NCBI GenBank assembly: GCA_018398765.1
Contig: JAHBMJ010002861.1
Coordinates: forward strand, 30,841 to 94,840
Reading direction: 5' to 3'
Length of the DNA stretch: 64,000 nucleotides
Source: Chromera velia
Lineage: Eukaryota; Sar; Chromeraceae
A program made the position numbers and the translations under genes. The notes under the pieces are model-generated. The model was not told the DNA's origin. It searched no databases and saw nothing but the letters and a program-made list of their open reading frames with translations. The first letter of the stretch is position 1, and every line of letters begins with the position of its first letter. Shown piece after piece: positions 12,541 to 64,000 of this stretch.

Positions 12541-13180
12541 ACTTCTGCTCCGGGAGCTGAAGGGGGAGAAACGAAAGGCGCCGCAATACAGGGCCTATCT
12601 TGTTGCTCGCCTCACGGGAGCTGACTAGGCCAACAGGTGAGCTGCTTTGGCGTTTCACCGATCTTCTGGGGGGAGTAGAGGAGGGGAAAAGTGAGGGAAG
12701 GAGAATGAAGCGATTGAGGGACAGGAGCATTTCAGCGGGGTAACACAGGTCACTTGTTTACGTTTCGGAGTGATGAGAGACTAGGCTTGCGCGGGACTCG
12801 GGAGAATGATCAGTTTTCTCGTTTCTTCATGTTGGGGTCAAAAGAGGGCACACTGAGAGGAGAAGAAAAACCACAAATGATGGGATGGAGGTGAAAGTAC
12901 TCTGATCCTTGCTTTGGGCGGCGGGTTGCTTTACGTGTTTTTGGTCTGCTTGGACTACTGTCACGTGTGTTCTTCACATTATTCTGCCTCAGCTTCTGTC
13001 TGGTCCTGCCATGCTGTTTTACACGGGGGGACTTCGTGTGACTCTCGGTTGACTTGACTTCCTTTTTCCTTTGCTGCCATCTCTGTCTGTCCCTCTCGGT
13101 GTATATATGTCACTTTTGACTCCAAGAAATCAACGCTTCTATCGATGTCTCGATCTCTCTCTCTCTCTGTGTGTCTGCAG

Positions 13181-18299: not shown

Positions 18300-18618
18300 A
18301 GTCAGTCAGTCAATCCGTCCGTCAATCAGTCAGTCAGTCAGCCAGTCAGTCAATCCGTCCGTCAATCAGTCAGTCAGTCAATCCGTCCGTCAATCAGTCA
18401 GTCAGTCAGTCAGTCAGTCAGTCAATCCGTCCGTCAATCAGTCAGTCAGTCAATCCGTCCGTCAATCAGTCAGTCAGTCAATCCGTCCGTCAATCAGTCA
18501 GTCAGTCAATCCGTCCGTCAATCAGTCAGTCAATCCGTCCGTCAATCAGTCAGTCAATCAGTAAGTCAGACAGTCAGTCAGTCAGTCAATCAGTCAGTCA
18601 GTCAGTCAGTCAGTCAAT

Positions 18619-18650
<32 letters not shown>

Positions 18651-18656
18651 CAGTCA
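18300..18656 (+). repeat. Minisatellite of (GTCA)n with interspersed atccgtccgtca blocks
   Basis: About 355 bases consist of cagt units broken at near-regular intervals by caatccgtccgtcaat, giving higher-order units of roughly 24-32 bases. The same GTCA word recurs at splice donors in this window. Any open frame across it is an artefact of composition. Confidence 0.95.
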
Positions 18657-22747: not shown

Positions 22748-25700
22748 TCAACTCCCAACCAGAGGCCTCTTGGCAGGGAAACGGATTCTCAACGCTCTGC
22801 CCAAGGGGCCCTCCACCACACATTTCTGCCAGAGGATCAACGCAATTGCGTTGGCAATCACCAGAGCTGCCAGCCCCCCCCTAGTTTCTACCCCCATGCT
22901 GATGTCACTAGGTGGATTTCCAGCCTCCTGATACCCCTTCCATGCAGGAGACACTGTCCCTGCTGCGTTGTAGTTCTCCGTCGCCATATGGAACAGACGC
23001 GTCGCCGCATTTGACGGCGAGAGAATGAGGAAGAGAGTGAAACCGAAAAGAATCAGACCGAGAACAAGAACAGGCAGGCTCTTGAAAACCGACTGACGGA
23101 ATTCATAACCGAACGAGAACACAACTGCCCCCGTCACAAACTGTGCATAAATCACCGCGAACAACGTAGAGGCCTCCCAGTTGTCTGACAACGTCCACCA
23201 CTCAAACCCATTCGAGTACTCTGTGGGGAAGCGGATATAGTTGGGTGCGTTCTGAATGAACGACAGTGCACCGGCAAGGAAGGCCAAATCGATGATCCAC
23301 ATTCCCAAAAGGGACCACACAGTGATGCTCCCCAGAAGGGCGCTTGTGGGCCGATTGTCCTTCGCAAGACGGTCACGTGGTCCGACAACGGACATGACAT
23401 ACGACAGACCGAGCACCGCAACTCCGTCGATCATGATGTACGCCATCTGACACATGAGGACTCCAAACCAGAACGAGCAGATCTTCAGGACGGAGAACAG
23501 AAGACCGTACAGAACAAGGAACTTGTAACACGACAGAGAGGTCTGAAGTGCACATCGACCTTCTTTCAATACAGTCACAACGTCACACACGCTCTTGTTT
23601 CGTGCAGTGAACGGAGCGACTGCCGAAGCCTCTGCTGCCGACAACGCAACCCCACAATGTGCCTTCCTAAGTGCCCCACAATCATTCCCCCCGTCCCCAC
23701 ACATCCCAACAACCAACCCCTCGGCTCTGTAAAGTTCGACTGCCTCAATCTTCTGTGCAGGAGACATACGAGCAAGACAACGCAGGCCAAAAAGCAAAGG
23801 ACTCCCTACTCCCAAATGACCCCCTTTTCTCAATACTGCAAATGCCTTTCCTGTTGCTGCCAGCTCAAGGCTCTGTGCCTGCATGAGTGCAGCCACGCGA
23901 GGACCCCCACGGAGCCCCTTCACCTCCTCTGCCGCACACGCGACCCTCGATCTCATGGCCTCCTCCACCTCCTGGGTGGTCCAGGGGGCTGACGCAGGGT
24001 TTCTCAAACTGCGCCACATGACCTGAGAGGTCTCCCCCCCTCCAGAGGTACTCTGAATCTCTACATCTGCAAGCAACTGCTCCCAATGCATACCCCCCTT
24101 CTCCTCCTCTGTCTCCTCCCCCCCCTCTGTCAATGAAAGAGGACCCCACAGCTTTGCTTCTCCGGCAATGAACGCCCCACAGAAGGGCGTGTCTCCAGTA
24201 ATCATCACAGGCCTCACCCCCGCCTCTCTCATTTCTCGAATCGCACCTGCTGTGTCTGGTTTCAATTCATTTCTGAACAAAAGCAACCCTCTCCAGGTCA
24301 ACCCCTGCTCTGCCTCATCTCTGCCCATACCTTCTGCTGCTGTGACACACTCTCTGCGGGAGCGTGTGATGCCATCGGTGCGAGATGCGAGGGCAAGCAC
24401 GTAACATCCCCTGAGGGCAAAATGACGGAACGACTCCTTTGCACCCTCGGGGATGCTCTCTGGAACACACGCTGCCGTGACAGCCTCATAAGATCCCTTA
24501 CAGTACACTTCCAACTTCCCCTTCCTGCTCTGCTGCTGGGTCTCCGACTGCCCCCCAGAGGGGACAAACACAGCGACACTCATGGTCATGCGTGCATGGT
24601 CGAAATCCCACCTTCTGAGTACAGTCAGGGTGGTGCTGTTGGGAAGAGACACCTCAGCCACCCCCTCCCCTCCCCCCTCTCTGCATGGAAGCAGCTTCCC
24701 CCCTGTAGAAGCAAACATCTCCCTCTCCACTTCATTTCCTACCAGAGCCTCCTTCCCCTTCGGTCCCCCCACTTCTTTTGGGTTCTCGAGTGACGCCAAA
24801 GAATGGCAACACGAAAGGCCGCGGTACATTTCAGGACCCATTGCCTCCACTGCCCCCTCCTCTGAGGGCGTCAGAATTTTGCCGGCAGGTTCGGGTTCCT
24901 GTGGGGTGACGGGGCGGAAACGGACAACGGCCCCGAGGAAGTCCAGGCAGTCCTTTGTCAATGTCCCCGTCTTGTCAAAGCAGAACACACGGACTTTACC
25001 ACTGATGGCAATTCGTCCGGGGTTCACACACACAATGCCTGCCTGCTTAAGTCTGGCACTGCTTCTGATCTGCCCCACAACCAAGGCGACGGGGAGAAGA
25101 GGGGAGAGAATCTGGGAGACGGTAAACGCTCCGTAGGTAAAACGAGTGACCCAGAATGCAGGCTGGCCACTGCTCAACTGAAACCAAATGGCCAGTGCAA
25201 AGTTCACAGCTCCGTAAAGCAGCAGAAGGATGAAGACCAAGGGCAGCTCTCTATCATACTTAAACCTGAGCCTCTCGGGGAACAGCATCGTTGCAAGGAG
25301 TTGACCCTTGCTGCTCTGCATTCCTGTGGCCACTGCCACTGCTGTGATCTCACCTGGACGGTCTGTTTGCCCCTCATCCCCCCCCGTGACTTGCATCACG
25401 TCGGTGCCTGCGAACAGCAGATGCTTCACGCACCTCTTGTTCGTCAGACTGAACGCATCCCCCGACCCCCCTCCCCCCTCCGTCTCTACGTGCGTCTTCT
25501 GGACAGGACGAGACTCCCCAGTCAGAGCAGACTCGTCAACCACAGCACTGCCAGACAGGACGGCCAAGTCACAGGGGACGGGCCAGCGGTTCCCCTGCAA
25601 GGAGAGAACAGAGCGCGCAGTTGCACACAGGAATCCACATACACAAGCTGAACTCGCGTTGCACCTCTCTTCGAATCAGTCGTCAGAGAGGAGCGAAAAG

Positions 25701-41117: not shown

Positions 41118-44100
41118 TCACTGCCTTCTGCTTCCCGGAACGACTGGATGGACAGACACGTGGGGGTGTCCCACACCGCCGCTCTCCATGACTGACGCAC
41201 GCCTCTCGTCTCTGTCCTCAAGGGACTTTCCCATCGGAATCTCATGCTGAGGGGGTGCCGTCCGTCCTAGTGCCTGGTCTCTCCCTTCCTCCCGCATGCG
41301 GGCAGCCACAGAGGGTCGGGCCCGGTTGGCAAGAGGAGCCAGGGCAGAGTCGAGACGGTCATCGATCGGGTCCCCCAACGCAGAGCGCCCATGACGGTCG
41401 GGTACCCTCGGTACAGCAGCTGAGCTTCTCCCCGCACTCACGGTGTTACTCACTCTGGGGGGAGACGACGGAGGGGAGGGAGAGGGCGTTCTGCTGCTGC
41501 CGGAGGGATTCACAAACGGACTCCTGCCCCCGCCCCCACCGGCTGCTGCACGGTCTATGTCCGCATGGACCCTGCGTACGGCTATGTCCATGTCTCTCAT
41601 CACACCTGCCAGAGACTTTCCGAGAGCCCCCGCTGTGCCACCTGAGAGGACCCCGGCAGTTCGGGGCCCCGGAGAGAAGGCACTACGGGAACTGAACCCC
41701 TCTCGTGCCCTTGCAACCTTCGCTCTGTATTTCTTGGCTGTGGGGGAAGGCTTCAATTTCTCAACTGGGAGTGCTACGGGACTCTCGGATGCTCTGAGTT
41801 GTTTGACCTTGAACGACTGCACTTCTGGAAGGAGTGGTGCAGGGATTTGGGGGGCGCCAGGAGATTCGGGGTTCTGCATTCGGTGGCACATCCCGCAGGG
41901 GAATGAATTGTCATGACACTGCTCCTTCAGGTGAGTGACGCACGCACCTTCCAGAGGAGAGGGGGTCCTGTTGGCTGACCTCCGTCCTGTCCCTTGGAGG
42001 GGCGACGGAGACCTGCCTCTGGCTTGAGGGCTTCTCCGTGCGAGCGGCCCTTTGCCAACCACATACACAGGAGTGTCCCCGCATATCTGACTGCGTGCCC
42101 GTGCTGCGAGTGAGTCAGATCCACGGGCAGAAGAGTCGGCAGCAGCCTCTCCCCCCAGTCCCCTCGACTCCGCTCGCTTTAGATCTGCACCTTCTCTTGT
42201 GGGCTGACGGGACAGATGACCGAATGTGATGGTGGAAACATCAAGGACAGGGTTGAAGCACATCAGGTTGTCTGCTCCCAACCCCCCTGCCCCTCTGGAT
42301 CCTCCATTCTGCGTGTTGGTGTTCCCCTTCGCCTTCGCACCTTCTCCTGATTCCTTGCGTGCCCCCACACAGCGCATCAACGCCCCCACCGCCCTCCTGG
42401 TCTTTTCCTTGTCGTCGCTTTCTGCCGTACAGGCGTTACAGGGGAAGGAGGGCTGGAGGTCCAGCAGGTCTCTCAGGGCTTTTCGCTCCTTCGCGGCAGT
42501 GGCCTCTGAGGCTTTGTGGCTCTCCAGAATGGAGTGGAGGAGCACGGCAGGCGTCACGGGTTTTGTGCCTGCATGCGGGGACAGACAGAAGCGGTTCATG
42601 TGAAAGCAAGAGAGAATGGAAGAGAAGAGAAGAAAGGTGATATGTGGAATCAGACAGGTGCACAATGAAGATTGTTCATGCGCTTTTGAACCGAAGCATG
42701 GCAAATCTGGGGCCTCTGCCGGCTGACTCTAATACTGACTGACTGACTGACTGACTGACTGACTGACTGACTCACTGACTCACTGACTCACTGACTCACT
42801 GACTGACTGATTGACTGACCTTTTTTCTCTGCCTCTTCTTCTGCTGCCCGGCGGGCCTCCATTCGCTCCTCCGCTGCATTGAGGAACAAGCAGGCAAAGA
42901 TGGAGGAGAGACATGATACACACAAGACGGAGAGGGAATAAAAAGATAACGCTGGATAGAGGGTAGCCAGAGATGCTGTACTCAAAACTTTGAGCAAGAA
43001 AAAAAGAGCAAAGCAAAAGGGAAAGAGCAGAGACTCACCGGCCAGTCAAGGGCGAACGATACCGAAAAGCCGAGAGAAAAATGAGTGCTGAGAATGAAAA
43101 AAAAGGAGATGAAGAAACAGACAGAGAACAGCACAGAACTCTGCACCTTCTGTTTGCCTTCCTCACTGAGCGACTGACCTAGTTGCCACAGGGACATCCG
43201 CTTGAAGTTTGTGGACTCCGAGCGGACCGACGCCTCCTGTTTGATCCGGTCAGTGCGCATCCCCACTCTTTGCAGCATCAAGTTCGCGTGGCGTTCCCTC
43301 ACGGCCTTGAGTCGTGCCTGTTTCTCCAATTCTTCTTGAGTCTGTTTCTCCACAACGGAGGCCTCTCTCTGCTTCCGTCTCTCCTCCTGCTTGGCTGCCT
43401 CCGGAGACAGAGTCGCGCTCCTCACCTGCTCCTCCCACAAACTTGAGGCTGCACTCTTCAGGGCCTGCATTCATTCGCGAATCCACTGAGTTTTCGGCCA
43501 TTCAACCATGCAATTTTGCACCCACTGACTCTCACCACAATTGTTCATCAATCGTCATTCAATGGTGAATTGTATGACAACAACAACACAAGTTGGGGAA
43601 GCACCGGGTTTCTTGAAAGTCTAAACAAGGCATGAGCCAAAACATGCAGTCTGATAGACACATGCAGAGCACGACATGCACTCACCTTGAAGAGCCCGTC
43701 CCCCTTCATTCCCTTCCCCTTCCGAGGGAAGAAGCTGCGCTTGCGGAGTCCGCTTCCCACGACCCACTTCCTGATGATTTGGGTTGCGTGTTTCCGTTTC
43801 ATCAAGAGAGCCTTGAGGGCCCTTTTCTCGCCGATGTTCTGTACAAAAGTCTGGATTCGAAGAGCCGCGCAGGCTCGACGGCACTTACGACGAAGCCAGG
43901 CGTGCTGCAGAGAAGGGAAAACACGGGCAGATAGACAGAATGAGAAAACTTCCAAGAACTGAATTCGTCACAACTCGATGGAAGTGAAGACATTCAATGC
44001 AATTCTGAGAGGGTCGTTGCGGCAGGGAAACGAAAAAAGAGATGCTGCAGGATTGCAGAAACTTTTGGAATTGAGCAAGACATTTGCTCTTTACCTCAAT

Positions 44101-45006: not shown

Positions 45007-48000
45007 TCAACCCGGGCGCATAACATTGCAAGGAATCTTCAGAAGGGCGGCGACTGACGGTGCATCTGACGCTGTGAGGAGTTGAAATTTGGAGGCCACC
45101 TCCGGACAGAGGCGCGCTGCCGTCTCCAATTCCTCTGCTGCCACATGATGTGCCTCTGTCAATGTGCCTGCCTCGTCTCCCCCCATGCCGCCTGCCCCGG
45201 CACTCATTCGAGAAATCTGAAGGTCCTCCATCTCCACCACAAACCCGAACTGTTTCTCAGATCCTCCCTTTGGCTTTTGGGACCTCTTCCTTCTTCGTCC
45301 TCCTCTCTCTTCCCCGATTTGCCTGACAACGTCTCCCTTCGACTCCCTACCGTCTTCCATCTCTAGGTGGGCACTAGGAGAGACAACCACAGAGAGCCCC
45401 CCCCATCCGTGCTGCCTCTCAGGGTGATTCTCTGCCGGGCTGTCTCGTGACCCTCCAGCGGCCCTCTTTCGTGTGGGGCTCTTTGGCCTGTCCCCAGGGG
45501 AAAGGAGGAAGTCGAGGCAGGTGCTGCAACTTTCCGGGACCACCTGCACCGTCGGACCCCCGTCTGCTCTCTTGGAAGAAGAGTTGCGATATATGGCCAG
45601 GTCTGCCTCTACATGATACGCATACGTCTCGTTCTGCTTTGCACCCATGCCGAGTACTACGGGGACCCCGTTTTGATCTGCAACCACCCTGAAAGGACGT
45701 CCCCCCTCATCAGTCTTCAAGACGTACGACCCCGACCTAATATCTCGGCCTCGACGTCCCACCAAAGAAACGGACCCGTCTGCCCCCACAGAGATCTGGA
45801 AAGGCAGCCCTGCCCTGTCTGACTCTACTCTCTCGACAGGTCGAGCCTTCCCGTCTGAGGATCTCTGGAGAATCAGCGGAAGGGGGGCGGGCCCTGTGGA
45901 TCCTCCTGTGGCTGACCGCTTCGAAAAGAGATCAGCCACACGTGCGAGGACCTCGTGATGACTCCCGGACCCATCGGGTTCTGTGGCGACGACAACATCA
46001 AAGGGACCATTGAAACCTCTCTGGGAGGAGAAAATCACCTCCAGAGTGGCGCCCCTGATCTCGCTGTCGATGTATACAGGGGCTCTACTGGCGTCTCTTC
46101 CCATCAGCACGAGGCCTCCTCTGTTGTCTTTGTCGAGACAGAGGGTGCAGTGGGGGGCTTCAGGAGTTTGAGAGAGACGGAAAGGAGCACCACCGTCTGG
46201 GCCGATGGTGGCCACAGTGTAAATTTCCCCGTCCCTTCCCTTTCCCTCAACCCTCTGACATCCGTCTGCACAGAATCGGATTCGAAGGGGCTCACCCCAG
46301 CGGTCCCCACTGATAGCGATGGGTTTCTGTACCTTTCCTCCCGATCCTTTTCCCTTCCCACGAACAATCACAACGGGGGTTCCGTCCTTTCTGCACTCTA
46401 CAAGAGCTGGGTAACCTCTCTCGTCCCGTGCAATCTGCACAGCCACGGTGCCTTCCCAGAACCCTGTACCGTTTCCTGCCTGCTGCTTTCCGTTCTCCCC
46501 CTCCGTGACATCGTTTCCTAGAGTGACAAGGACGGGAATCTGTCCCAACGGCTCGTCGAAAGAGGCAAGGGGATACTGGTAGCCTGCAGGGGTGCGTCCC
46601 ACTACTTGCATCGTGCCATCAGCTGTCCTCATGACTTGCAGAGGGTTCCCTGCTCTGTCACGAGACGTAATGGTGGGGAGCGTCCCTGGTTTCTCCCGGC
46701 TGATGACAACCGGCTTTCCTGTATGGTCGCGGTCAACTGCCGCGGGGTTTCCCTGGCAGTCTCTGGCCGGACGGTGGAAAGGGAGGGGACGTGCCGAGGC
46801 AAGGGTGTAAGGGTTTCCTAGTTGGTCCCTCCCAGTCAAACGAAGGAGACCTGCACCCCTGCCGGCACTGCTAATGTCGATCTCAAGTCTGAGGGTATCA
46901 CCCCGGCGGTCCACCCGCAAAACTTCACAAGTACCCCCCTCAGCCCCCGGACGAATGACGAAGGGAACAGAAACGTCTCGCCCCACCAAGACAGGCTGTC
47001 CCTTCTCGTCCCTGCCCAATAGAACGTCAGCAAACGGACCCTCCTGGGAGAATCCCGTACCCGCCACCCCACCTCTCGCTCTGCCTCCTGAGGAAGAAGA
47101 CGCGAGAGCAGCCTCTGCGTCAGCTGCAGCAACCACTGCAGCAACATAAGACTCGTCGCTTGCGTCTTCTCCCACAACTTTGAACCCCCCAGACGAATCG
47201 TCCTCGAGCCTCAACGTGCCGCCTCCGCTTGCCCTCTCGATCACAAAGGGCTTTCCCCTTCCTTCATTCGCCCTCCCGATAATGCGAACTTCCTGCCTTC
47301 CCGGCACTCTCTCAACAAAAATCGGACGCCCCTCGAGGTTCCGTGCAGGCAGGTAGTCAGCTTGGATCGGTTGCTGTGACCCTCCAGAGGGCCTCGAGCG
47401 TCCGGGACTCCCTTGAAGTCCCTGGGCACTTCCGCTCATTCCCTTTGAAGGAGACACGCGGCCCTGTGCCGCTGCTGCTGCTGCTGGTCGCCTTGGTGCG
47501 TTCCGGTTCAGTGCCGCGACAGTGTACACGCATCCTCGCTTATCTGTGCCGGTAACTAGGAACCTCCCCGCAGGGTCTCGGCGCACTCGCAAGGGACCCC
47601 CGGCTGCGTCTTTTTCGACAATCAGAGGCTTTCCACGGTCATCTGTAGTGACCACTGACGGTCGCCCGGCTCCGTCTCTCTGCAACACCACACACCTCCC
47701 CCCTGCATCTTCACCCGTCTCCAGAACCTCGTCACCGTCAATCACCCCAAACGTGTACTGCCTGCCTTCCGGGTCGGTCCCCAAGATCTGGGTACGCCCG
47801 TGAGCGTCCAGAGCAGCTTGTAGGGGAAGGCCAGCGCGGTCGTGTGTTGTTGAAATCATCACCCCCGCCCTGTCCCCTGCTTGGAGTACCGTCACCCCCC
47901 TACTCTGCGGATCTCTCTCAATCACAAACGCCCTCCCGTCATCATCTCGACCCACAGAGAAGGGACACGCGTCAGCCAAGGCTCCGACAGAGACCGAGCT

Positions 48001-51000
48001 AAACGGTCCAGTCGCTGCACCCGATCCACCAGCCCCAATCAATTTGGCAAGTGCCCCCACTGCATATTTCCGTCCCGCAAAATCGCGGCCCATCACCGCA
48101 GGCCCAGCCCCGACGTGGGCCTCTCTGCCTACGTGGAGAGCCTGACCTCCCGCGTCCCTCTCCACCGCAGCCACGGACCCTTTCTCTCCGTTGGACGCCG
48201 CAACGCAGAGACGGCCTGTGCGTGCGTCACGGTGGATGACCATCTGGCGCCCGTCCGCAAGTTTCCCAGTGCCGAAGGTCATCCAGTCATCGTACAGACA
48301 CACCACAGCTTCTATTCCCCCCTCTTCCCATCCTACAACTCCACTCAGCCCCTCTGCCCGCCTAACCACACGGAGAGGGAGGCCGAGCTCATCGCGACTG
48401 GAGGAAACGAGACGCCCATTGTAAGGATCTCTTCGCGTGACAACCACCAGGTTCTCCCCCGGCTTTTTGTGCACAAGAGCAACTCCCCCCCCTGGTGTGG
48501 CTGCGACAAGAACGGGGAGGTCCTCGGGCTGCAGCGGTTGGGCGTCAGGGGAGACGCCTCTGAGACCGTCTGGGGCTGTGTGGAAGTTGGCCGTTGCTAT
48601 TGTGTACGTGCGTCCTCTCAGATCTCTACCGAAAATACGGCGGACACCTGCGGCATCTTCTGCCTCTTGCAATGGTCTCCCTTTTTTATCTCTCGCAATT
48701 GCAAACGGAGCCCCGTCGGCGTCCCTCCCAATAATCATGGGAGCGCCTGTCCGGCTGTTTCGACGAATCACCACTGGGGTCCCTTCTGCATCCAGAGCTA
48801 GCTGGGGGGGTGCAGAGGGGAAGACTGCGACTCTCCGAGGAAGTCCCGCTGTGTCTCTTCCTGTCACAACGTGATTACCAAAGCTGTCGATTGTCCATTC
48901 GAACGGCTCGCCTCTCTCGTCTGTCCGCAATTCCTTCGCCCTCCCACTGGAAGAGTCACGAACCACAATCACAGGCCTCCCATCGGCACCCCCTTCCAAC
49001 AGCACAGGTTGCCCCGAGGGATCTATGCCTGCCACAAAAGGCCGAACGCCTGTGCGGCCCTCCAGCTGCTGCCAGGCTCCCATTGCAGGAACGTCAATCA
49101 GACTGCTGGCCGCATGTGCACCAGGAAGGGCAGCCAGAGGAGACCGCAAGGTCGCGGCAACGTACCTCCTTCCTGTCTTGTCCATACCCTCCACTTCGAC
49201 TGTGCCTGGCTGATTACCCTCAGCCGCCATCTGTCTGAACGTGAACAGTGCACCGGAAAGGTCTCTGTCGAGAAGGAACGGGGCACCGTTCTGGTCCCTG
49301 CCGAATATGAGGGGGGCACCTGTGACAGCGTCTCTCTGGACAATCAACGGCCGCTTTTGTCCGTCTACAGCTGCCTCACAGCTGCCGGATGGGGGCAGAG
49401 AAGCAAGCACATATCTGGCACCTGAGGGGTCTCTGCCAATTATCTGCAGAGGGCCCCCGGGTTGCGTCTGGACAACCTGGAGAGGGCGTCCTCCCAAATC
49501 GCCGTCTACTGCCACGGGTGCTCCTGTGTGGGGGTCTCTCTTGATTAAAGTGACTGCACTCCCGTCTGCTGATCTCTCAACTAGCACTGGGTCCCCATTG
49601 GGGTCTCTGGCAACTAGGAAGGGGAGGGAGCCTTGTTGGAGGACCCCCGTAGTGGCAGGGCCTGTGGAGATGCCCAGACCTGATGCCCCGAAGGCCCCCC
49701 CCTCTCCTGAAGACAGACATCTGAGGTCTTGGGAATCGATTGTTGCCACCTGTCTAGAGGTTCCGTCTGGGGTGATGTGGACAACAGAGGTGGTGCCGTC
49801 TGCCTCGTGGCGCGTCTGGACCGTCTCTCCGGGTGCGCCCCCGCCAAGGAGGTAAGGTGCCCCGTTGGAATCCCTGCCCAGAACCCCCAACGCGCCCGTC
49901 AGGGGGTCCCTTCGAAGGATGATAGGGAGGCCCTGGGCACCTGTGCCAACGTCGTATGGGAGGGCGGGAGAGAATACGGCCTCCACGGTCTGTTCCCCAT
50001 TGGCCTTTGTTCCAAGGACAGAGTACCCTCCATCCCCGTCGGCAACAACTCGGAGAGGCCGTCCCTGTCCGTCTGACTGAATGCATTCTGCGCTCCCTGT
50101 GAGGGGGTCTCTCTTGATCAGAATCGGGTTCCCACTCACCGGCTCCTTTTCAATCACCACGGGCTGTCCGTCTGGGGCCGTACCAATGACAAAAGGGGGG
50201 TGAGGGGCTGACGGGGAAGGTGAGAGGTCTGAGAAGAGATAGGAGGAGGGGGACGGATTCATGACTGTCGCAATGGTTGTCAGACGTCCGTCGGCGTCCT
50301 CCCCCACCACCATGCAAGGGGCCCCGTGAGTTCCTCTGATGGCCTGCAGAGGCTGTCCCCTTCCGTCTTGGGTTTGGATAACTGGGGCCCCCATCATGGG
50401 ATCTCGACTGATCACGATGGGGTGACCTGTGATTGGGTCTCTGTCGACAATGACGGGCTGTTGGCTGGCGTCTCTTCCAACGTCGAAGGAGAGGGAGGCC
50501 TCGGGGGCAGAGGGGTCCTCAAAGTGGGCCTCCACGTACGGGGTCCCGTCGGGGAGACGGCCCGTCACCTGGTGCCGTCCCGGCCCTGCGGCGTCCCTCA
50601 CGACCACGAGGGGGGCACCGCTTCTGTCGGTGTCTACAACTACCTTCTGACCACTCGCAGGGTCGCGTCTGATGATCATGGGTGCTCCTGTGACACCGCT
50701 TCTCTCGATGATCACAGGCTCGTTCTCTGCACGCCGACCGTAGATGAAGGGAACGTCAGGTCTGCCGAAAGGGGAGCTGCCAGACCCCCGAGAAGCGCTG
50801 AAGCAATGATCGCTGCTTGCGTCGCACTGAAGGGTTGCAAGAGCGTATCTCTCCCCGTTTCTGCGGGTGCCCATGATCACCGGAGGATTCCTAGAGGCAT
50901 CCACAGTCAATGGGCGGCCGTCTTCCCCATGCTCAATCACATAGGGAGCTCTGGTGGCTGCCGAACGACCAATCACCAAAGGACTTCCGTCTAGGGCAGA

Positions 51001-54000
51001 CCTCTCGACGTACACCTGCTGTCCCCTCGAATCAACGCCCAATTCATAGGCGGAGGGATTCAGGAGACGGCACTCGACGTATGTCCTTCCGTCGGGGGTT
51101 GTTCCGACAACCTTTAGGGATCCGTTTTCGTCTCTAACCATCTGGAAGGGCTTTCCGTTCTTGTCCATGCTTCTGTTCTCAACCACCCCTGTGTCACGGG
51201 CAATTCGAATCACTACGGGCGCGCCGGTCTCGGCGTCTTTTTCGACCACAACGGGCTCTCCGTTCTCATCACGGCCGACGAGGAAAATAGCACCGTCGTC
51301 TACCTCTCCATCCCCCCCGTAGATCGTTCCTTCCGCCTGTGAAGTCACCACAGAAGTCGCCACTGAGCCCCGACCAGCCATCGTTCGGCCCGAGGGGCGT
51401 GAGGGCACGGGGGGTGCATATCCGTTTCGGAGGATTCTTGGAGCGCTGCTCTCGAGGGATGCGACAATGTATGCCTTCCCATTTGCATCCCTCCCTTTGA
51501 CTGCAGCACGGCGGGACGAATCTTCCACCACATGGAGGGGACGGCCTGAGATGTCTCTGGTGAGAACGGAAGGGGCACCTGTGCTAGCGTCCCTCCCTAT
51601 GACAATGGGGTGACCTGTGACGGGGTCTCTGTCAATCACCACAGGTTGCTGGTTGGCGTCTCTTCCGACGTCGAAGGAGAGGGAGGCCTCGGGGGCAGAG
51701 GGGTCCTCAAAGTGGGCCTCCACGTACGGGGTCCCGTCGGGGAGACGGCCCGTCACCTGGTGCCGTCCCGGCCCTGCGGCGTCCCTCACGACCACGAGGG
51801 GGGCGCCACTTTGGTCGCTCTCCACGACCACTTTCTGGCCGGTGGCTGCGTCTCTGCGAACAATCATGATCTTCCCTGTACGAAGGTCTCTCTCAAGAAT
51901 GACAGGCTCGTTCTCGGGATTCCTTCCGAGGACGAAAGGAACCTTTTCTCTCTCGCCATCGAAGAGAGACGCAGCCTCACTGCGGAGAGATGCGAAGGTC
52001 ACCAAGGCCCCCCCCGCGTCTGTCCCTACAATTGCTGCCTTCCCCCTGGAGTCCCTTGTCAGCCTTAGGGGGGCTCCCTTTGCGTCTGTCGCCATTTCAA
52101 CAGGCGCTCCTGCAGGACCGTCTCTGTCGTTCTTCTTCTGGACAGAGAGGACCAGGGGCCTGCCATCGATGGGGTCTCTCTCTATCAGCAGCGTGCGTTG
52201 GCTTTCCGGGGCCGCCCCTGCCACGAGGCGGTAGGACCCGGACAGCAGTTTTTGGAGCTGTGGGCAGGCGTCGGTGTGGATCTGCAGTAGCAAACACATG
52301 CAGATGAGACACAAGAACTCCATGCACAACTGTGGACACATTCTTCAAGCAAAACAGAAAATCTTCTTCGAAAGAGCCACGCAAGGCAGAGAAACATTTG
52401 AAAGGCGTACCCCTCTTCTGTGCAGATGTCGCCACCACAACTCTTCTCCGTCTCTCCTTTTGTCCTCTCCCCTGTCTTGGAACGTTTCTTTTTTCCATTC
52501 CTTCTCTCTCTTTTCTACATCTCAAAGAACTTTCGTGGTCCGACTTGTCTCTCTGGCTGTCCAAACACTAAGATTCCTTCCTGCTGACCTTCAGGCATCC
52601 CGATGGAAGACGCTCAAGAGCCCTGATGGATCCGTCAGCACCCCTCTGAGTCTTTTCGATAATCGGCTCTTCCATTCCCTTTGGATGCACTCCAAAGATG
52701 CACATCTCGTCGTCTGGGGCCTCTTCTGTCGGCTCCTGTCCCTCAGTCTCCTCGTTCTCCCCTCCGCCGTCTGTCTCCATCCGCATCTTCTTCTTCTTCA
52801 GAAGGCTGACGACACACAGAGAGTCGTCATCCGCCCTCCCGACCGCAAAGGGCGGGGGGACACCCAGCTTCTCCACGGCCTCACGGAGAGCGCTGCGAGT
52901 GCTGCTGCCAATGCGTGCAACTACTTTTCTTGTCGTTGTGACCGGCGCGGTCTCCTCTTCACCCTCTTCTTCCCCTTCTGCCTCTGGAGAGGAAGGAGAA
53001 GTCCTCGACTCCTGGAGTGCCTCCACTGCCAGAACCCCATCTGATTTGCGTACGAGCTGAAGGGGAGTGCGGGCTGCAGACACAAAGAACAGAGCAGAAA
53101 AGAAAGGAGAGACAAGTCTGTGAGGAAAGTTGTAAGAGACTGTCGCGCGCCTCTGTCGTCGATGTACGCGAAAGGAAGAGTCAAAGTCACGAAGAAAGAC
53201 AAAACAGACGAATAAATCTTGGAACAATGCCCTTCTTGAGGGGCTCAGGTCCGCTTCCTCCCCATCTATTCTCGCTCCTTTTTTCTCTTCGTATTTTTCT
53301 GTGCATCCGCCTGTCTGTATCTCCTCCCTCTGAGTCACACCCTGTTCTTCGTCCTCTAATCTTTCAACATGCACTTTTGCTTCTTCTGCTGAAACAATGT
53401 GGCACAGATTTATGGCGACATGAGATCCTGAGTTCTCTCAACGCACCGCTACTCCTCAGACACGTAGCCCTTCCCGTCTCTTCGTCTTTGAGGACGACCA
53501 CTGGTGCGTGCGTCAGAGGGTCCTTGTCGATCAGCACAGGGTCTCCCTCAGGCGTCAGGCCGAAGTCAAAGAGCGGCCCCGGAAGGCATTCGTCCGGGTA
53601 CACCGCAGCCACCCTCACTGACCCGCTGCTGGGGTCCAAACTCACGACCTGCAAATTCACTCATTTGTCAATCATGAGACGTCAAGGTAGGATTTGCAGA
53701 GATGAAAATGGGACATCAAGATCATGCAGCCTGTGAAACTTACGTCCGGCCGTCTCTATCCAGAGTGCTTCGCCGCAGCATGCAGTATATTTATTCAAGA
53801 CTGGAATCAGCATTTGAGGTCTCACACATGGCACAATGACATTGAAAAGCAGACACACATCAGTCTCACCTGAAGAATTCCCGCAGGGCTTCTGATGACT
53901 GTGAACGGCCGCCCCTCCGCGTCTGTCGAAGTTCTGTCGCCGTCAGGTCCCACCAGGGCGACTCGGAAGCTCCCTGGGGGTCCGGCTGCCTCGATGAGAA

Positions 54001-54653
54001 CAGGAGCGTCTGAGGGGACAGACCAGCCAGGCACACAGGAGCGTTCTTTTGCTCCTCTTGCGTGGGATCGCGTGATGAGAGGAGACGATCCGCTCAGGAG
54101 TGCAACCACAGATCCGTCTCGAGTCTCCACTTGTGCAACGCTCTTCCGACCTGCAGAGGAGCCAGAGGAATGCGACAGGGAGAAGCTGAGGAGCGCCCCC
54201 TCCTCGTCAGAGCCTCTGGTAGTCATCGCGCCATCGGGAGAGAGTGCGAAGACCACTGGAGTGCCTGTGACGGGATCTCTCTCGACAACAACGACAGACG
54301 AGTCCGTGTCAGTCCCCAAGTCTACGTGTGCGGGGTTTCTCAATCGGACCTCCGTGCGTCCATTAGGTCCAACCAGCTGCAGAAAAACGATACAGTTACG
54401 GGAGACACAGAGGAAGCTGTGCAAGTTGAGACATGCGGAATTACTGGAGAGACTTTGTCCGCTCACTGTAATGACTCGCATCACGCCCGCCCTTTCAAGG
54501 CAAATTGAGTGGCAAGCTGAGGAAGTTTTTTGCTTTCGCTAAAGAAAGAAACCACAGTCACTTGCGAATTATTCTCCCAGTTGTGAAGGCAACAGATGAC
54601 TCGGACTGGGAACGAAGAGACTGACAGAGAATGACAAAAGCAAACGAATGGAC

Positions 54654-54706
<53 letters not shown>

Positions 54707-57700
54707 CACGCATTCACACACACACAGAGGGAGAGAGAGAGAGAGAGAGAGAGAGAAAGATGAGTCGGGTGCCTTTCTGAATTATTGACCTTCATGCCGA
54801 ATTCGTCCCTTGTCATCTTCAGCCCACTCGCGGACGTCCCCTCTGCGTCTCCCTCTCTGTGGACTGTCAATGAGCCGTCTTCAGGGCTTCTAGACACCAA
54901 CACGATACCGCCATGCATGTCATTGCCCAGAGAGAAAGGCTCAGGGCCCGTCTCCAGGTCCCCGTCTCCTTCATCCCCTGTCCACGTGGCGCCCTTCCCC
55001 CGTCTCGCTGCGCGCTTCTGACCTCTGTGGTCTCGCAGGAACAGGGGGTTCGGGTTATCAAACGTCGCAAGCACATACCGACTTCCATCCGCACCCCGAC
55101 CAACCACCCGGACCTCTCTGCCCTCATCCGCCCCTGTGCGGATAACCTGCAGAGGCCTGCCGGAGACATCAGAACGAACAGCAACGGGAGCTCCCGTGTT
55201 AGCGTCCCTCCCTATGACAATGGGGTGACCTGTGACGGGGTCTCTGTCAATCACCACAGGTTGCTGGTTGGCGTCTCTTCCGACGTCGAAGGAGAGGGAG
55301 GCCTCGGGGGCAGAGGGGTCCTCAAAGTGGGCCTCCACGTACGGGGTCCCGTCGGGGAGACGGCCCGTCACCTGGTGCCGTCCCGGCCCTGCGGCGTCCC
55401 TCACGACCACGAGGGGGGCGCCGCTTCTGTCGCTTTCCACGACCACTCTCTGACCGCTCGCCGGATCTCTCCGAATAACGAGAGGTGCTCCAGTCTGTGG
55501 ATTCCTTTCAATGAGGACAGGCTCGTTGTCTGCCCCCCTTCCGAAAACAAAGGGAGACCTTCGCTCTGCGTTGACAACTCTTCTGACAGACCCGTCAGTG
55601 TTTGCATTCCCTTGAAGAGTAGCAAATGGAACTTGCTGAGAGGATCCTTCTTGAGTTCCCATCACGTGTACCGACCCATCTGTGTCTGTCACGAACACGA
55701 ACGGGTTTCCTTCGCCATCCTCTGACATCACATACGGGGCTCCGTTGTGATCTTGTCCCAACAGGACGGGGGTACCTGTGATGGGGTCTCTGTCTACATA
55801 GACGGTGCGGCCGTTGGTATCTCTGGCAGGCAGCTGCTGTTGGAGCTGCCCCGCACTTCCAGTGGCCTCCACTACCTTCTTTCCCGAGAGGTCGGACCCC
55901 ACAACCTGCAGTTGCATGCGTTGAGGGAGAATCAAAAAAAGCGAATCAGAAAAACAAACAAACGCATGCTGATGATTGCAACAAAGTTCGGAAGAGGAGT
56001 CCAGGAGGATTGAATCAACACAAGGGATTTGAACCGTACAGACATTCTTTAAAGCTGGACCGTAGTAGCACCTCAGATCCCGATTCGTTCAGGCTCAGAT
56101 CTAAGAATCAGATGGCTGACGCGAGAAAATGGGTTTCAACTTGTGCTGCTCTTTTAGAGCACATCTTTCCTCACTTGTGAGCGCATTCTCTCTTACTGTG
56201 ATCAGATAAAGAAACACCAACTGTCTGACTGACTGACTGACTGACTGACTGACCTTCCAGCCCCCGTTTCCTGTCTGGACGACACGGAAAGGTAATCCCT
56301 TGCCGTCTCTCTCCATCACGATGGGCTTCCCAGTTCGAGGGTCTCTTTTGATGACTAACGGAGCCCCGCCTCTAGAGGCCCTCTGCACGATCACAGGCAT
56401 GCCATTGCCATCCCGTGCAAAGAGAGTGGCTCGGTCCCCCACACCACCTGGTCTGTCTGCCGCCCCACTGAGAAGAGGTGAGTCTTCTCGGTCTGCCGTT
56501 GCGACCTCGTACTGCTTTCCCGTCTCGTCCTCTCCGACGACCCTCAGTCTCCCGCTCTTCGAACGGACAACCCGGAGAGGCTGGCCTCTGAAGTCTCTGT
56601 CCACCACTATTGGGGCGTTCTTCGAGTCTCTTCCGCACACAATTGGGGCGCCTGTGAGAGGGTCTGCCTCGATGACAACAGCATTCCCCTTCGTGTCTCT
56701 GCCTGTGTCGTGGAAACGACCATTGCTCAGATAAGCCACTGGCTGCTGCAGACCGGTCCCCTCCATGTCCCCCAGTACCTGCACATGGGTTCAAACAAGA
56801 GTGCATACACTCATTTGGCGCACCCGAGACACAAAAAGTGGTCCAGTCGGTGCAAGGCAGAAGAGCGGCGCATATCAAGAGACAAAGCGACACAAAAAAC
56901 TTTGACGTTCTTTTTGTTTGATCAGTGTACCAGTGATCGTTTCCTTTCGCAAAGACGAGTAGTGACCCGAAATGAGCCATCTTCCGGAATCGGGGTGAGT
57001 TCATTTTTGTCTGCATCGATCTGCAGGGATAAAGCCTGAGCTGCATAAACGACTGACCGTGTAGCCTCCGTTCCCTGTTGGCTTCAACACAAACGGCTGT
57101 CCGTTGGCGTCTCTTTCTATGACCACACGCCGACCGTTGGACCCTTCCCGTCGGACCAGAATGGGGTTGCCCGCCTGGTCCCTCTCGATCAACAGAGGAC
57201 GGTTCTCCACGTCTCTCGCAAAGGCAAACTGGGTTCTCGCAAAGTCTCCAGAGAGACCGTCGAAGTCCGAAACGCCAAATTCTCCCGTCTCCGCGCGCTG
57301 GGGAGCTGCTGCGGTCGCAAGGACCGTCTCCTTTCCAGACGCGTCTCTGCCTATGACTTGCAGAGGCTTTCCGGGGCCCTTGGATACAAACCGGAGGGGC
57401 TGTCCTTTGGCGTCCTTCATTTGAACCACAGGCGCGTTCTCGTCTCCCCGAGAGAGGAGCACGGGGGCACCCGTGATGGGGTCTCTTCGAATGGCGATGG
57501 GAATGCCGTCGGGGGTGACACCGCGAGAGATGCTGCCCCTTCCTACCAGGTAGCCGACTGTGTAAGAAGTTCCGTCTATGTTGGTCCCAACCACCTGCAT
57601 ATGTGCATTTAATTCAGAAATCGTACGTGTCTCACGTATCGACACATGCGCTTTCTCGCATGAAGAGGTGACAGGAGACCTTTCACAGACCAGCTTTCTC

Positions 57701-60700
57701 TTTTTCTCTGCTAGGCGTGTCACAATGACTGCTGACTCATTATACGCAAATGCATTGCCATGCCTTCTGCCGATTGATTTCTGCATACGTGCTTCTTTCT
57801 TCGACTAGCTGACAGTGTGTGAATAGCCTGTCACTTCTACCCGACGCCTCCCGTTTCACTTGCAGACAAACACACTGACGGACCTCCTGCTGCCCATGCT
57901 TGTTGGTGATCAGCTTGAAGGCTTTCCCTGATTTGTCGTGTGTCATTTCGATTCTTCTGTTCGAGTCTGCCGCCCTGGTGACAACGATCGGGTTTCCTGT
58001 CCGAGGATCAGTCTCCAAAAGGAAGGGCCGCCCCTCGGGGTCGTGACCAACAACCAACGGAGCTGCGGGCCCCTTGGCAACGCCCTTCGCAGGAGACCTG
58101 CCAGAAGCCACAGCGACGCCCCCTGTGGCGCTGCCTCCAGGACCTTCAGCAAGAGCAGCAACCTCATAGAGCTTCCCCCTCTCGTCCCTTCCCATCACGA
58201 CGGGGCGTCCCTGCTGGTCGAAAGAGAACTGTAAGGGACGCCCCCCCTTGTCCGTCTCCACAACAAAAGGAACGCCATTCGCCCGTCTGCCCATCACCAC
58301 AGGCCCACCCCCCAGAGGGTCACGCTCTATGACCACGGAATTGCCTTCCGGGTCCACCCCAGGGTCCATACCCTCAGGGTCACTCAGACTGGCCAGAATG
58401 ATCGAATTGCCGTTCCTGTCCTTTCCGACGACTTGATGTACCCCTGCGGCAGATTTTGTGAGTCGGAGCGGAGCCCCAAGCTCATCCTTGTCTCGAGCGA
58501 TTGCCATTCCTGTCGCAGAGTCAGATGTGACAAGGACAGGATTTCCTGTGGTGGGGTTTAGCTCTACCGCGACTCGCCTTCCCTGTTGATCTGTTGCTAC
58601 CAAAAATGGGAGACGGCGCTGTACCTGAATGCGGGGGGCCTCGCTGTGATCTGGATTCCATGCTGTGGTGCCAAGGCGACTCAGGCTCTTCCTGAATGCA
58701 GCCACTGGTCCCGCCCCTGGCAACATACTCGAAGAGCGCCCAAACATTCCTGAGCCCTCCTTTGTCAGCATCGGGGCGGGTCCCTGCATCGTCTCGTACG
58801 TTCCTCTCAGAGGAGCCCCCGAGTTGAACTCTGCAATTCTGTACACCTGCCCGCTAGAGTCTGTTCCCAGGACCTGACGAGCCCCTGACGAGGGGTCTGA
58901 ATGGAAAGCGAGGGGTCGCCCTGCTCTGTCTCGTTCGATTACAAAGGGAACGCCCCGACGGTCTTTTCCATACACCACTGGAGCGCCTGTCATAGGATCC
59001 ATCCGAATTTGGACAGGCAGGTTTTCAGAGGACACACCAAAATCTGCATGCTGGGGATCGTCAAACACGGCAGCAACGTAGGGTTTCCCATTGGATCCTG
59101 TGCCCACAAGTTGAAATCCTCCGAGAGCGTCGGGCTCCACTCTGAAAGGCCGGCCGCGTGCGTCAGTGTCCACCTGCACCGCCGTCCCCTCCGCCCCCTC
59201 TCCTCCCTCCCTCCTGACGATGATGGGGTTCCCTGTGACTTCATCTCGTGAGATCACAACAGGGCGTCCTTCCTGGTCCCTCCCAATGGCAAAGGGGGGA
59301 ACCTGCCTGCCCACCCAGGAGTCACGTCTCGCGCCCCCTCTGGCAGTCACCCCGGGCGTCCCCCTCGAAACAGGAATTCTAGCAACAGAGTACTCCTGTC
59401 CATTTGCACGTCTCCCCATCACAGTCATGGCTCCGCTTCCGTCAGAGTCAGGGGTGATGCGCAGAGGCGCTCCCGAAGCATCCCTGTCGGCTCGTAGTGG
59501 CGCGCCTGTCTTAGCGTCCCGACTGAAGATCAGAGGGGCCCCGGAAATAGGGTCCCGCTCCACGAGGACGGGTTGGCCGAGTGCGTCTGTGCCCATGAGG
59601 GCCTGCGAGGGCTCGATGAGGTGGGCAAACACCCGGTCGGTACCTCTGGCAGTTGCCCCTACCACCTGCATGAGAGGAGGCCAGGGAAAAGAGACGAGAA
59701 AAAAGTGACGTGCATGCAGACAGCAGGATCAAACACACAATGCCACTATATTTGTTCAAAGACTTGAGGACCATCGAGAGCTTCTGGTCAGATGCATCCG
59801 GAGTAAGTCTAAGAAGGGCAACGCAGACCGACCTGTCTTTTGCCGCTGGTGGTGTCCGTGACAACTCGAAGTGGTTGTCCTTTCTCGTCCTCTCTCACGT
59901 AGATGGCCTCTCCTGTCTCGGCGTCTCTCATGACGACCACTGGAGCTCCAGTGTTTGGATCGGCCTCTACCACCACGGGCTCCCCGCCCTGTGTCTTCCC
60001 AAAGAAGGGACGTTGGGGAAGCACCAGAGAGTCACGACGACCGCCGCCAGACAGACCGCCACGAAGCTGGCTTCGGACTAGGAGCGGCTGTGTGCTTCCA
60101 ACTGTTCCGACACGATATGTGGTGCCGTCTCTGTCTCTGCCGACAATTTCGGTGACCCCATTTCTTCCCCTACGGACCTGCAGAGGCTGTCCACTGAAAT
60201 CCCTCTCGATCACTACAGGGACCCCGTCACTCCCACTACCGATCACCACAGGCTGCCCCGTCAGAGGGTCCCTCTGCACAATGAGGGGCCGCCCGTCGGG
60301 GTCTGTCCCGGCGTCCCAGAGGTCGGGCCTCTCGAGGACCCCCACTGTGTACTGAGACCCAGCGGAGTCCACTCCCACAACCTGCAGGCAGGCAAAGTCA
60401 ATAGATGAAAACCATAGTCAAAGCAAAGCCAGGGGAAGATGTTTTCGTCTCTTGTCTTTCTGTGTCATATTCTCCCGACCTACACCCTGCGTCTTCCCCT
60501 CAATTTCCCGCCACACACGAATACAGTCTCAGAGAGACAGAGAGAAAGAAAGAGAAAGAGACCGAGACACACACAGAGACCGAGAGAGAATTATTGGCGA
60601 ATCAATCGACTCACCCTCTCTCTTCCATTCTCATCCGAGACAATGCGCAGAGGCCTTCCGCCTTTGTCTGCCGCTACTACTCTCCTCTGTCCATTGGTTT

Positions 60701-63179
60701 TGTCTCTGAAGACGACAACAGGATTCCCTGTGGCGGGCTCCCTCTCAACCAGCATCGGCTCGTCTGCAAGGGTCCGACCAAAACGCACGTGCGCAGGGGG
60801 CTCTGATTCTAGGGTGCCCCCCTCCGTGCCAATTCCCGCGTTCCAATCCTCCCCCCTTGCGGGCCTATGGCCGACAACCGTCGCCACCCTCATGTCCCTC
60901 CCGTCTGCGTCTCGTCCGATGATTTCCGTCCTGCCGTCTTCCTGTCTCAACTCGAGAGGCTTCCGTTGACCGTCGTGCTTGACTGCGAACGGTACGCCGT
61001 CTCGGCCCATCCCGACAACGACAGGGGAGAGATTAGTTGGGTGACGGTCAATGACCACAGGACGGCCAAGCTCATCCACCCCGTATGGGGCAGCCTCTCT
61101 GTCCTCAAACACCGCGACTGTGTAGGACTTTCCAGACGAATCCCTCCCAACCAGCTCCTTCCTTCCCCCGTGTCTCTCCAGAATCTGAAGAGGCGCTCCT
61201 GCCTCGTCACGGTCTGTCCTTCTTCCCTTCAAGTCAACTGCAAATGGGAAATCCCGTTCGTCCGAGTCAACAAGCACAATCTCCCCCTGTCCATCATGCC
61301 CGAGAGAGAAGGTGGCCATCATGGGGTCTCTCTCAGATTCACTCATGTGAACTCGTCGTTTTTGCCCCTCCTTCTTCTTCCCTTCCCTCACACGAGCAAG
61401 CACATACGCAGCTCCGTCGGTGTCCCTCCCGAAGACGACCAGCCGTCCCTGTCCGTCTCTTCCTTGCTGAAGAGGTGTGCTGCGCTTATCTGAAGATGTC
61501 ACGGAAGGCAGGCCCTGGGCGTCACGAGCATACACAGCGACCCTTCCTGTCTCGGAGACCCGAACGACAACGGGGTTGGCGACTTCGTCCACCGCCCTTC
61601 GGAGAGTTGATCCATCCTCGAGAACGGCCACGCAGTCGCCCTCCCTGCTCACAAGCCGAGAGCGGGAGGACGTCCCCTCTTTCTGGTCCCCTTCCTCAAG
61701 TTGTAACATCTTGTCCTTGCCCGCATCTGGGTGACCGAGCCGGAATGCCCCCCCTGCAGCAGTGCGACCTGCAATGACGGGACACCCCTCTTCGCAGTCT
61801 GCCCAAGAGATCACCGCACCCTCCCCCTCCTCTCCTAGAGGCACTCCTGCTGCAGTCACTGCTGCACCTGTTGCATTCCCCGGAAGGTGCACAGGCACTC
61901 CCACAGCGAACGGAAGAGACAGGTCAGGACGCGAGTCCTCGATGACGGCCACTACGAGCCGTCTCCCCGCTTTGTCCGAACCCGTTACACCCAGAGCCCC
62001 GTCTCTCTGGCGGTCGAAGCGAAATTTTCGAGGAAGTCCCCTCGGCCCCGTGGAGACGTTCAGGCCTTCATTGGGGTCCCTTGAGAATATGACGGGATTT
62101 CCTACAGCATCCCTCCCGACAAGTACGGTCGTCTCTGTCTTCGGGGAGACTGACCCGCTCTTGTCCCCCTGTTGTGCGGCAGAGGTGAGACGGGCAATTC
62201 GGAAAAAGAGGGGGTTGTCAAGGAGGGCGATGGCACGACTGGGAGGAGCCCCTGCCTGAGAGGCCACCTGAAGTCTTCCGTCAGAGAGGGGGAACAGAAA
62301 AAGAGGGTTTCCCTGCTTGTCGGTACGCACACGGGTGACCCCCCCATGACCTTCCCGTGTCGGCATCACGATCACACACCGATCCGCACCGTCCTCTCCT
62401 GGCGCTTCTCCTGCCCCCCCCTTCTCTCCCTCCTTCTCAACCAGACAGAAGTTACCACTCACAGTCTCACGACCAACCAAGAAAGGAGGCCGGGGCGCCT
62501 GCCGATCTAAAACGGCGACCACCAACTGTTGTCCGAATGCGTCCTTCGCGATAACCTGAGTGCTGCCATCAGGGGCTGTTCGCATTGAAAGCTTCCCCTG
62601 TGCCTCTCTCCCGTCTCCCAGAATAAAGGGCAGGGCTGTTCTCTCCTCCTTCCCAACCACCAGGAAAGATCGATCCTCAGAGCCCGGAACTTTCACAACC
62701 ACAACGCGGCCTTTCGGGTCCCTCCCGAGTCTGCACAAAGAAGGGGAGGTCAGAGACCCCACTGTCACCCTCCTGCCCTCAGTGTCCCTACCGACCAAGA
62801 GGGGCTGCTCAGACCCTCCGGCAAGCAGACGGAAAGGTCCCCCTGAGGCATCCGATGTGTCCACCCTCACGACCTGTCCATCGAATGTCGCGATAGTGAA
62901 TCTTCCCTGGGCAGACCGTTCCACGACAATCGACCTCCCGTCCCGGTCCCGGCCAGGAGCAAATGGAAGTTCAATCCCATCCGCACCCCTCAAGGCAGAA
63001 CTGACTGCATCTGCACGGGCAACCTCGTACGTGGCGCCTGACGTGTCTGCACCCAGGACGGTTCCGTTCTCAAACCTCAGAGGGAGCCCTCGTCTGTCCC
63101 TGTCGATGATTGTTGGGGCTCCCTCTCTGTCTCTTCCAACCACGCGGACCCGCTTCTTGCCGTCCTGGTCGGTCCTCAC
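45007..63179 (-). CDS. Giant RDxxG-repeat protein, 5' end beyond window
   Basis: Ten exons in phase: 63179-60615, 60381-59833, 59665-57884, 57594-57058, 56778-56254, 55905-54790, 54376-53870, 53648-53447, 53073-52589 and 52281-45007, encoding 5,180 residues to the stop; a cag acceptor before 63179 shows that more lies upstream. Nearly the whole chain repeats a module of ~80-105 residues: V-x-G-x-D-x-x-G-x-x-Y-x-V-A, a loop, then runs of G-R-D-x-x-G-x-P-V-V-I-x-R-D-P-x-T-G-x-P-V-V-I-x-R-D-x-x-G-x-P-L-x-V. An example is PVVIDRDPVTGHPIVIGRD. The alternation of Asp/Gly turns and Val/Ile strands predicts stacked beta-hairpins. No catalytic motif or membrane segment is seen. The last ~220 residues are non-repetitive with a basic patch RRRKRSQKPKG. 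It resembles YD/Rhs or solenoid repeats only loosely; I assign no family. It is probably structural, surface or scaffolding. One exon is 7,275 bases long. Confidence 0.85.
50480..50616 (-). repeat. 137 bp conserved block in the giant gene, copy 1
   Basis: Matches 51668-51804 and 55283-55419 without a difference that I can see by eye. It encodes the loop region around RHQVTGRLPDGTPYVEAHFE of one repeat module. Confidence 0.88.
51585..51807 (-). repeat. 223 bp block in the giant gene, copy 2
   Basis: Identical by eye to 55200-55422, although the two lie in different exons (exon 10 and exon 6). It contains the 137 bp core shared with 50480-50616. Confidence 0.9.
54659..54760 (+). repeat. (GA)n/(GACA)n microsatellites in an intron of the giant gene
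   Basis: Two ga tracts (about 54659-54688 and 54728-54757) flank gaca and caca words. They lie between exons 6 and 7 of the giant gene. Confidence 0.93.
55200..55422 (-). repeat. 223 bp block in the giant gene, copy 3
   Basis: Identical by eye to 51585-51807. The flanking sequence diverges quickly on both sides, although the encoded modules remain similar. Confidence 0.9.
56225..56253 (-). repeat. (GTCA)n microsatellite starting at a splice donor in the giant gene
   Basis: On the minus strand the donor after GGCTGGAAG (exon 5, ending 56254) continues as seven gtca units. Confidence 0.93.
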
Positions 63180-63333: not shown

Positions 63334-64000
63334 CTTCTTTTGGACGTGCACACTCAATGTAACAAACACACCGTCCCAATCCCAACAAAAGGCTTCTTTT
63401 GGACGTGCACACTCAATGTAACAAACACACCGTCCCAATCCCAACAAAAGGCTTCTTTTGGACGTGCACACTCAATGTAACAAACACACCGTCCCAATCC
63501 CAACAAAAGGCTTCTTTTGGATGTGCACACTCAATGTAACAAACACACCGTCCCAATCCCAACAAAAGGCTTCTTTTGGACGTGCACACTCAATGTAACA
63601 AACACACCGTCCCAATCCCAACAAAAGGCTTCTTTTGGACGTGCACACTCAATGTAACAAACACACCGTCCCAATCCCAACAAAAGGCTTCTTTTGGACG
63701 TGCACACTCAATGTAACAAACACACCGTCCCAATCCCAACAAAAGGCTTCTTTTGGACGTGCACACTCAATGTAACAAACACACCGTCCCAATCCCAACA
63801 AAAGGCTTCTTTTGGACGTGCACACTCAATGTAACAAACACACCGTCCCAATCCCAACAAAAGGCTTCTTTTGGACGTGCACACTCAATGTAACAAACAC
63901 ACCGTCCCAATCCCAACAAAAGGCTTCTTTTGGACGTGCACACTCAATGTAACAAACACACCGTCCCAATCCCAACAAAAGGCTTCTTTTGGACGTGCAC
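63334..64000 (+). repeat. 59 bp tandem satellite, at least 11 copies, running off the window
   Basis: The unit begins cttcttttggacgtgcacac and ends cccaacaaaagg. Copies are identical by eye apart from one base (acgtg to atgtg near 63522). With a 59-base period the array cannot hold one reading frame. It lies in the intron upstream of the 63179 exon of the giant gene. Confidence 0.98.

Follow-up and report, generated by a model that had tools for sequence, protein, structure and literature searches.

A 64,000-nucleotide stretch of the Chromera velia genome (here, the window) raises the question of what is encoded on its minus strand between positions 45007 and 63179, where a reading of the letters alone (the sequence-only reading) had noted a giant β-rich protein built from one repeated module of no named family. 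The repeat proved to be real and to occupy exactly these limits, with the first exon of the window beginning at 63179 and the stop codon of the tenth ending at 45007. When the ten exons, whose splice sites were picked by hand with the repeat as guide, are joined in frame, 5,180 residues are obtained with a single, terminal stop codon. These residues contain 54 modules, each with seven predicted strands, in agreement with the earlier claims of a giant β-rich protein and of more than 5,000 residues of one module in the window.

The module (consensus LGRDAEGRPVLVERDPRTGAPVVVGRDAATGAPVVVERDEEGAPLRVVRDADGRLQVVGRDADGRSYVVATL) comprises 72 residues, contains D-x-x-G turns and is predicted to form seven strands. 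Searching the 5,180 residues with a hidden Markov model (HMM) of the module returned 54 matches, 53 of them at an independent E-value (i-E) <0.01, as compared to three matches when the whole protein was shuffled 100 times. A profile of 29 modules (residues 1-2729) detected 24 modules in the remainder (1,076 bits), and the reverse search, with a profile of those 24, recovered 29 from residues 1-2729 (1,259 bits). In the protein, 91 occurrences of the motif D-x(2,3)-G-x-P were counted, whereas 200 composition shuffles averaged 7.7 and never exceeded 17; RDxxTGxP.[VI] was observed nine times, against a mean of 0.005 and a maximum of 1, again in 200 such shuffles. Six turn glycines are kept in 70-96% of the modules and one aspartate in 85%, and identity between modules averages 30% (1,285 comparisons). 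The 11-12-residue period described in the sequence-only reading was also seen and corresponds to a strand plus a turn; the unit, however, is the 72-residue, seven-strand module, and this is paired.

Most modules are arranged as A-B pairs; 6-13 residues link the two members of a pair, and mostly 17-75 residues separate one pair from the next. Overall, 21 linkers are of 0-13 residues (a length of 0 being found between two partial modules) and 31 are of at least 17, namely, 30 of 17-75 residues and one of 166; Gly, Ala, Ser and Pro abound in the long linkers. The A and B types differ in sequence: once 13 of 53 modules had been omitted as partial or unlabelled, leave-one-out assignment was correct for 33 of 40, whereas 200 label shuffles gave 18.3 on average and 29 at most. 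AlphaFold2 (AF2) returned a confident model of one pair (modules 15-16; 58811-59305, minus strand), with a predicted local distance difference test (pLDDT) score of 90.9 and a predicted template modeling (pTM) score of 0.80. For four modules (36-39; 49723-50760, minus strand), the alignment designated A4 (six rows) was used, A2 (overlapping rows) and A3 (extra pairs) being misaligned and left unused; the resulting model had a pLDDT of 78.2 and a pTM of 0.49, with residues 170-187 falling below 50. The continuous fibre or shell proposed earlier is unsupported, since these models of two and four modules show two-module units with disordered linkers.

The ten exons (all on the minus strand) are exon 1 (60615-63179; 855 codons), exon 2 (59833-60381; 183 codons), exon 3 (57884-59665; 594 codons), exon 4 (57058-57594; 179 codons), exon 5 (56254-56778; 175 codons), exon 6 (54790-55905; 372 codons), exon 7 (53870-54376; 169 codons), exon 8 (53447-53648), exon 9 (52589-53073; degenerate, with a Glu-rich insert) and exon 10 (45007-52281; 2,424 codons plus the stop, which holds modules 31-54 and ends in a non-repeat tail of 209 residues). 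The nine introns measure 167-413 nt, and all nine start with GT and end with TGCAG. Eight of the nine are in phase 0, with intron 8 being in phase 1, and intron 9 sits within a degenerate stretch. Introns 1-7 each lie immediately 5' of a strand of the [VL]V[GS] type (VVG), six of them in A-labelled modules and intron 6 in a partial module, and complete modules at these positions require both flanking exons. The modules interrupted by introns 1-5 score i-E values of 2.2e-20 to 4.6e-26, comparable to those of uninterrupted modules. Exons 2, 4, 5 and 7 each correspond to about one A-B unit (169-183 codons). Such a repeated intron position and such unit-sized exons would be expected if units had been duplicated together with their introns.

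Duplicated DNA was also found within the gene. A 223-nt block at 55200-55422 (minus strand), in modules 25/26, is identical to that at 51585-51807 (minus strand), in modules 32/33, and 137 nt of a third pair, 36/37 (50480-50616, minus strand), are identical to both, matching 55283-55419. The 100-nt flanks of the 223-nt block share merely 65% and 42% identity in ungapped comparison. Over 170-171 codons, identical block included, the three pairs differ by 0.23-0.30 non-synonymous (dN) and 0.61-1.00 synonymous (dS) substitutions per site; the minus frame is thus under selection. These copies have been subject both to purifying selection and to recent homogenization of blocks, and recent gene conversion or duplication would explain the identical blocks, as assembled. 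Open reading frames on the plus strand that overlie the exons (up to 315 amino acids) were rejected as genes because selection acts on the minus frame. With introns marking the A-B unit and three copies sharing identical DNA, the locus shows how a giant gene grows and is homogenized.

The gene continues beyond the window, whose right end coincides with that of contig C2816 and falls within a 59-bp minisatellite (63334-64000; 11.3 copies) in the intron preceding exon 1, truncated by the contig end. A second contig, C3290, overlaps the end of the window through its first 540 bases without mismatch and carries the minisatellite at 525-799 (L027) in fewer copies than C2816, the assembly breaking there. 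Past this shorter minisatellite lies a further exon with four modules and an acidic, non-repeat N-terminus (predicted residues 1-115, isoelectric point (pI) 4.5) that would start at a putative ATG at C3290:2254. The extended protein would comprise 5,648 residues if a GTCAGT donor is used and 5,653 with a GTGAAG donor; the former is preferred because six of the nine donors in the window begin with GTC. This version counts 57 modules and ~594 kDa. No signal-peptide core was found in the first 60 residues of the extended model and no membrane segment in the model as a whole (highest 19-residue hydropathy 1.18), and the earlier suggestion of a surface protein accordingly found no backing.

Relatives were sought in the genome (177.8 Mb; 4,040 contigs). 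A second, divergent gene on contig C3545 gave 21 module matches, its N-terminus opening with MPLRRKLRSTPTDRLSPRRG and having no hydrophobic core. At ~11250-12910 (minus strand), that gene bears a 552-residue tail rich in Arg, Ser, Pro and Gly (pI 11.5; 17.6% Arg; 17 SP), placed in frame by splice sites read manually. Fragments of modules were found at C818:33370-38575, C3671:8908-11601 and C3747:47987-48626, some frames containing internal stops and the C818 pieces sharing 50-76% identity with exon 1; these are probably decaying copies. Two weaker minisatellite matches (75-76%) were also noted on C818. Since the search scored the best candidates only, more module copies may exist in the genome. 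The genome further yielded 11 alveolin and 58 light-harvesting matches, as in a photosynthetic alveolate. The earlier suggestion of a lineage-specific protein is to this extent in keeping with an alveolate genome, with any restriction to the lineage being valid just within the reach of the searches.

No family in Pfam, NCBIfam, PHROGs (two pieces only) or the PDB sequences describes the module. The earlier statement that it belongs to no named family held in these collections, save that the Pfam family RHS_repeat (PF05593) rose above its cut-off on one of 14 module pairs, as weighed below. The alveolin domain IMCp (PF12314) gave no match in the scanned pieces of the giant protein, and no Ig or FN3 domain exceeded its Pfam cut-off, the nearest being Ig_CycH (E 0.037; 14.2 bits against 27). 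Titin- and obscurin-type giant strings likewise run to thousands of residues, with β-rich domains in tandem, linkers between them and module-phased exons, although the module here differs in having seven strands in 72 residues and in forming A-B pairs. The tandem PH domains of Rtt106 also count among the closest known systems; neither AF2 model shows any helix longer than three residues, such as the C-terminal capping helix typical of PH-like folds. A giant string of β-domains is of a known kind; the module appears to be new, within the searches made. As to size, one report (PMC4501334) describes a multimodular type I fatty acid synthase of >11,000 residues in Chromera, of a similar size class in a chromerid, yet an enzyme made of other domains.

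The reading favored here, to which we give about an even chance, is that a single gene codes for a giant protein of ~5,648 residues, in which A-B pairs on linkers form an intracellular multivalent scaffold or elastic tether. In such a protein, ~57 modules of 72 residues, each with seven predicted antiparallel strands joined by D-x-x-G turns, would pack mostly as fixed A-B pairs, small and rigid, that would hang on flexible linkers rich in Gly, Ala, Ser and Pro, mostly of 17-75 residues. The soluble string would be kept within the cell, where its role may resemble that of titin-like strings, namely, that of a long elastic tether or multivalent scaffold, with the non-repeat ends perhaps serving as anchors. 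An intracellular location is suggested by the fact that neither a signal peptide nor a membrane segment is visible and by the basic Ser/Pro/Arg tail of the second gene, and the architecture points to a mechanical or scaffolding role; for the site, the cell cortex or another cytoskeletal location would be our guess. The broader idea, namely, that a chromerid has expanded a novel family of domains, whose seven-strand modules may pack in pairs in a new manner, to give two or more giant titin-like strings in the cytosol that act as elastic or scaffolding elements of the cortex or cytoskeleton, is put forward tentatively, as a possibility that we consider somewhat doubtful. Should the model hold, algal relatives of apicomplexan parasites would possess a β-domain not yet catalogued, together with a giant protein made from it. 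Given the small size of the module and its good folding in silico, work on one or two pairs can test its structure and role.

Several observations weigh against this reading. Three intron-bearing A modules (982-1054, 1931-2001 and 2480-2543) were closer to B when left out, and the tail of the window gene is itself not basic (pI 6.35). The four-module model matched a β-propeller lectin in Foldseek at E 7e-7, though with a template modeling (TM) score of 0.16. Exon 9 is degenerate, judging by its sequence, and its junction with exon 10 is the weakest splice. Finally, the predicted ATG lies 13 nt past a TGCAG acceptor, such that a signal peptide may be encoded by exons further upstream. The lectin match would be explained were the modules β-propeller blades and the protein a row of propellers binding ligands such as glycans, which we consider decidedly unlikely. 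The lectin in question, CV39L (6gxs), was also found by profile comparison (E 0.0042) and in a second Foldseek match (E 2e-3), and it shares the local strand-turn-strand signature; superposition, however, yielded matches at the level of blades, with TM scores of at most 0.24 and a root-mean-square deviation of 16-22 Å, and the similarity is hence local. In addition, blades of four strands cannot be made up evenly from seven, and a single pair is confidently predicted alone. The low confidence of the four-module model leaves room for other packing between pairs. What counts most against a novel family is RHS_repeat, which scored 27.5 bits (E 4e-6; cut-off 22) on pair 46-47 and matched two of the 14 pairs at E<=10, as if the protein were a eukaryotic relative of RHS/YD repeats forming a spiral shell. 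The two do share repeated strands and D-x-x-G turns. Yet no single RHS stretch passes the cut-off alone, the best match in the long exon frames was at E 0.13 (13.1 bits), the remaining exons gave none, and the models of two and four modules, like the linkers, do not point to a continuous spiral. Because the Tyr-Asp (YD) motif is nearly absent (two in 5,180 residues containing 60 Tyr) and the genome search returned no RHS match at E<=0.001, the repeat was not filed under RHS, and we regard such kinship as highly improbable.

The weak junction of exons 9 and 10 is also where the gene might be split in two, exons through 9 forming one gene and exon 10 a separate, long single-exon gene beginning at ~52341. 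Reading exon 9 beyond its donor reaches a stop at ~52568, an ATG followed by a hydrophobic stretch lies upstream of exon 10, and degeneracy is seen in exon 9 and in the surrounding 166-residue stretch. Still, the donor, TGCAG acceptor and phase 0 of this junction match those of other introns, the intergenic gap would be just ~230 bases, and the start of exon 10 can be read as the remnant of the end of an A module, though one below the profile threshold; two genes are considered unlikely. The position of the start codon shortly past an acceptor would equally suit an extracellular protein (wall, sheath or adhesive) with its signal peptide on an upstream exon, and alveolates do possess large extracellular multidomain proteins. 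We hold this to be rather unlikely, given that the N-terminus has no signal-peptide look in both genes, that the tail of the second gene is Arg/Ser/Pro-rich, and that 37 Cys and nine N-glycosylation sequons are present in 5,180 residues. Hydrophobic runs preceding exons 1 and 10 were rejected as evidence, resembling the pyrimidine tracts found 5' of other exons.

Elsewhere in the window, a P5B-type ATPase gene similar to human ATP13A2 (E 4e-78) is found on the minus strand at 22748-25675, with upstream exons to ~26.5 kb; it matched P-ATPase-V at E 1e-139, yet under the curated cut-off. A DUF1681 protein, presumably of the NECAP type, is encoded at 3-914 (minus strand; E 1.8e-52). Donors with C at position +3 in place of the usual purine were seen in six of nine cases in the giant gene (59832, 57883, 57057, 56253, 54789 and 52588) and in one of two inspected donors of the ATP13A2-like gene (25843), despite the best U1 small nuclear RNA match of the genome having an ordinary 5' end, AAACUUACCUGG. 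The donor of intron 5 opens a GTCA microsatellite (56220-56253), and long CAGT-type arrays are also present at 18299-18656 and 42734-42819.
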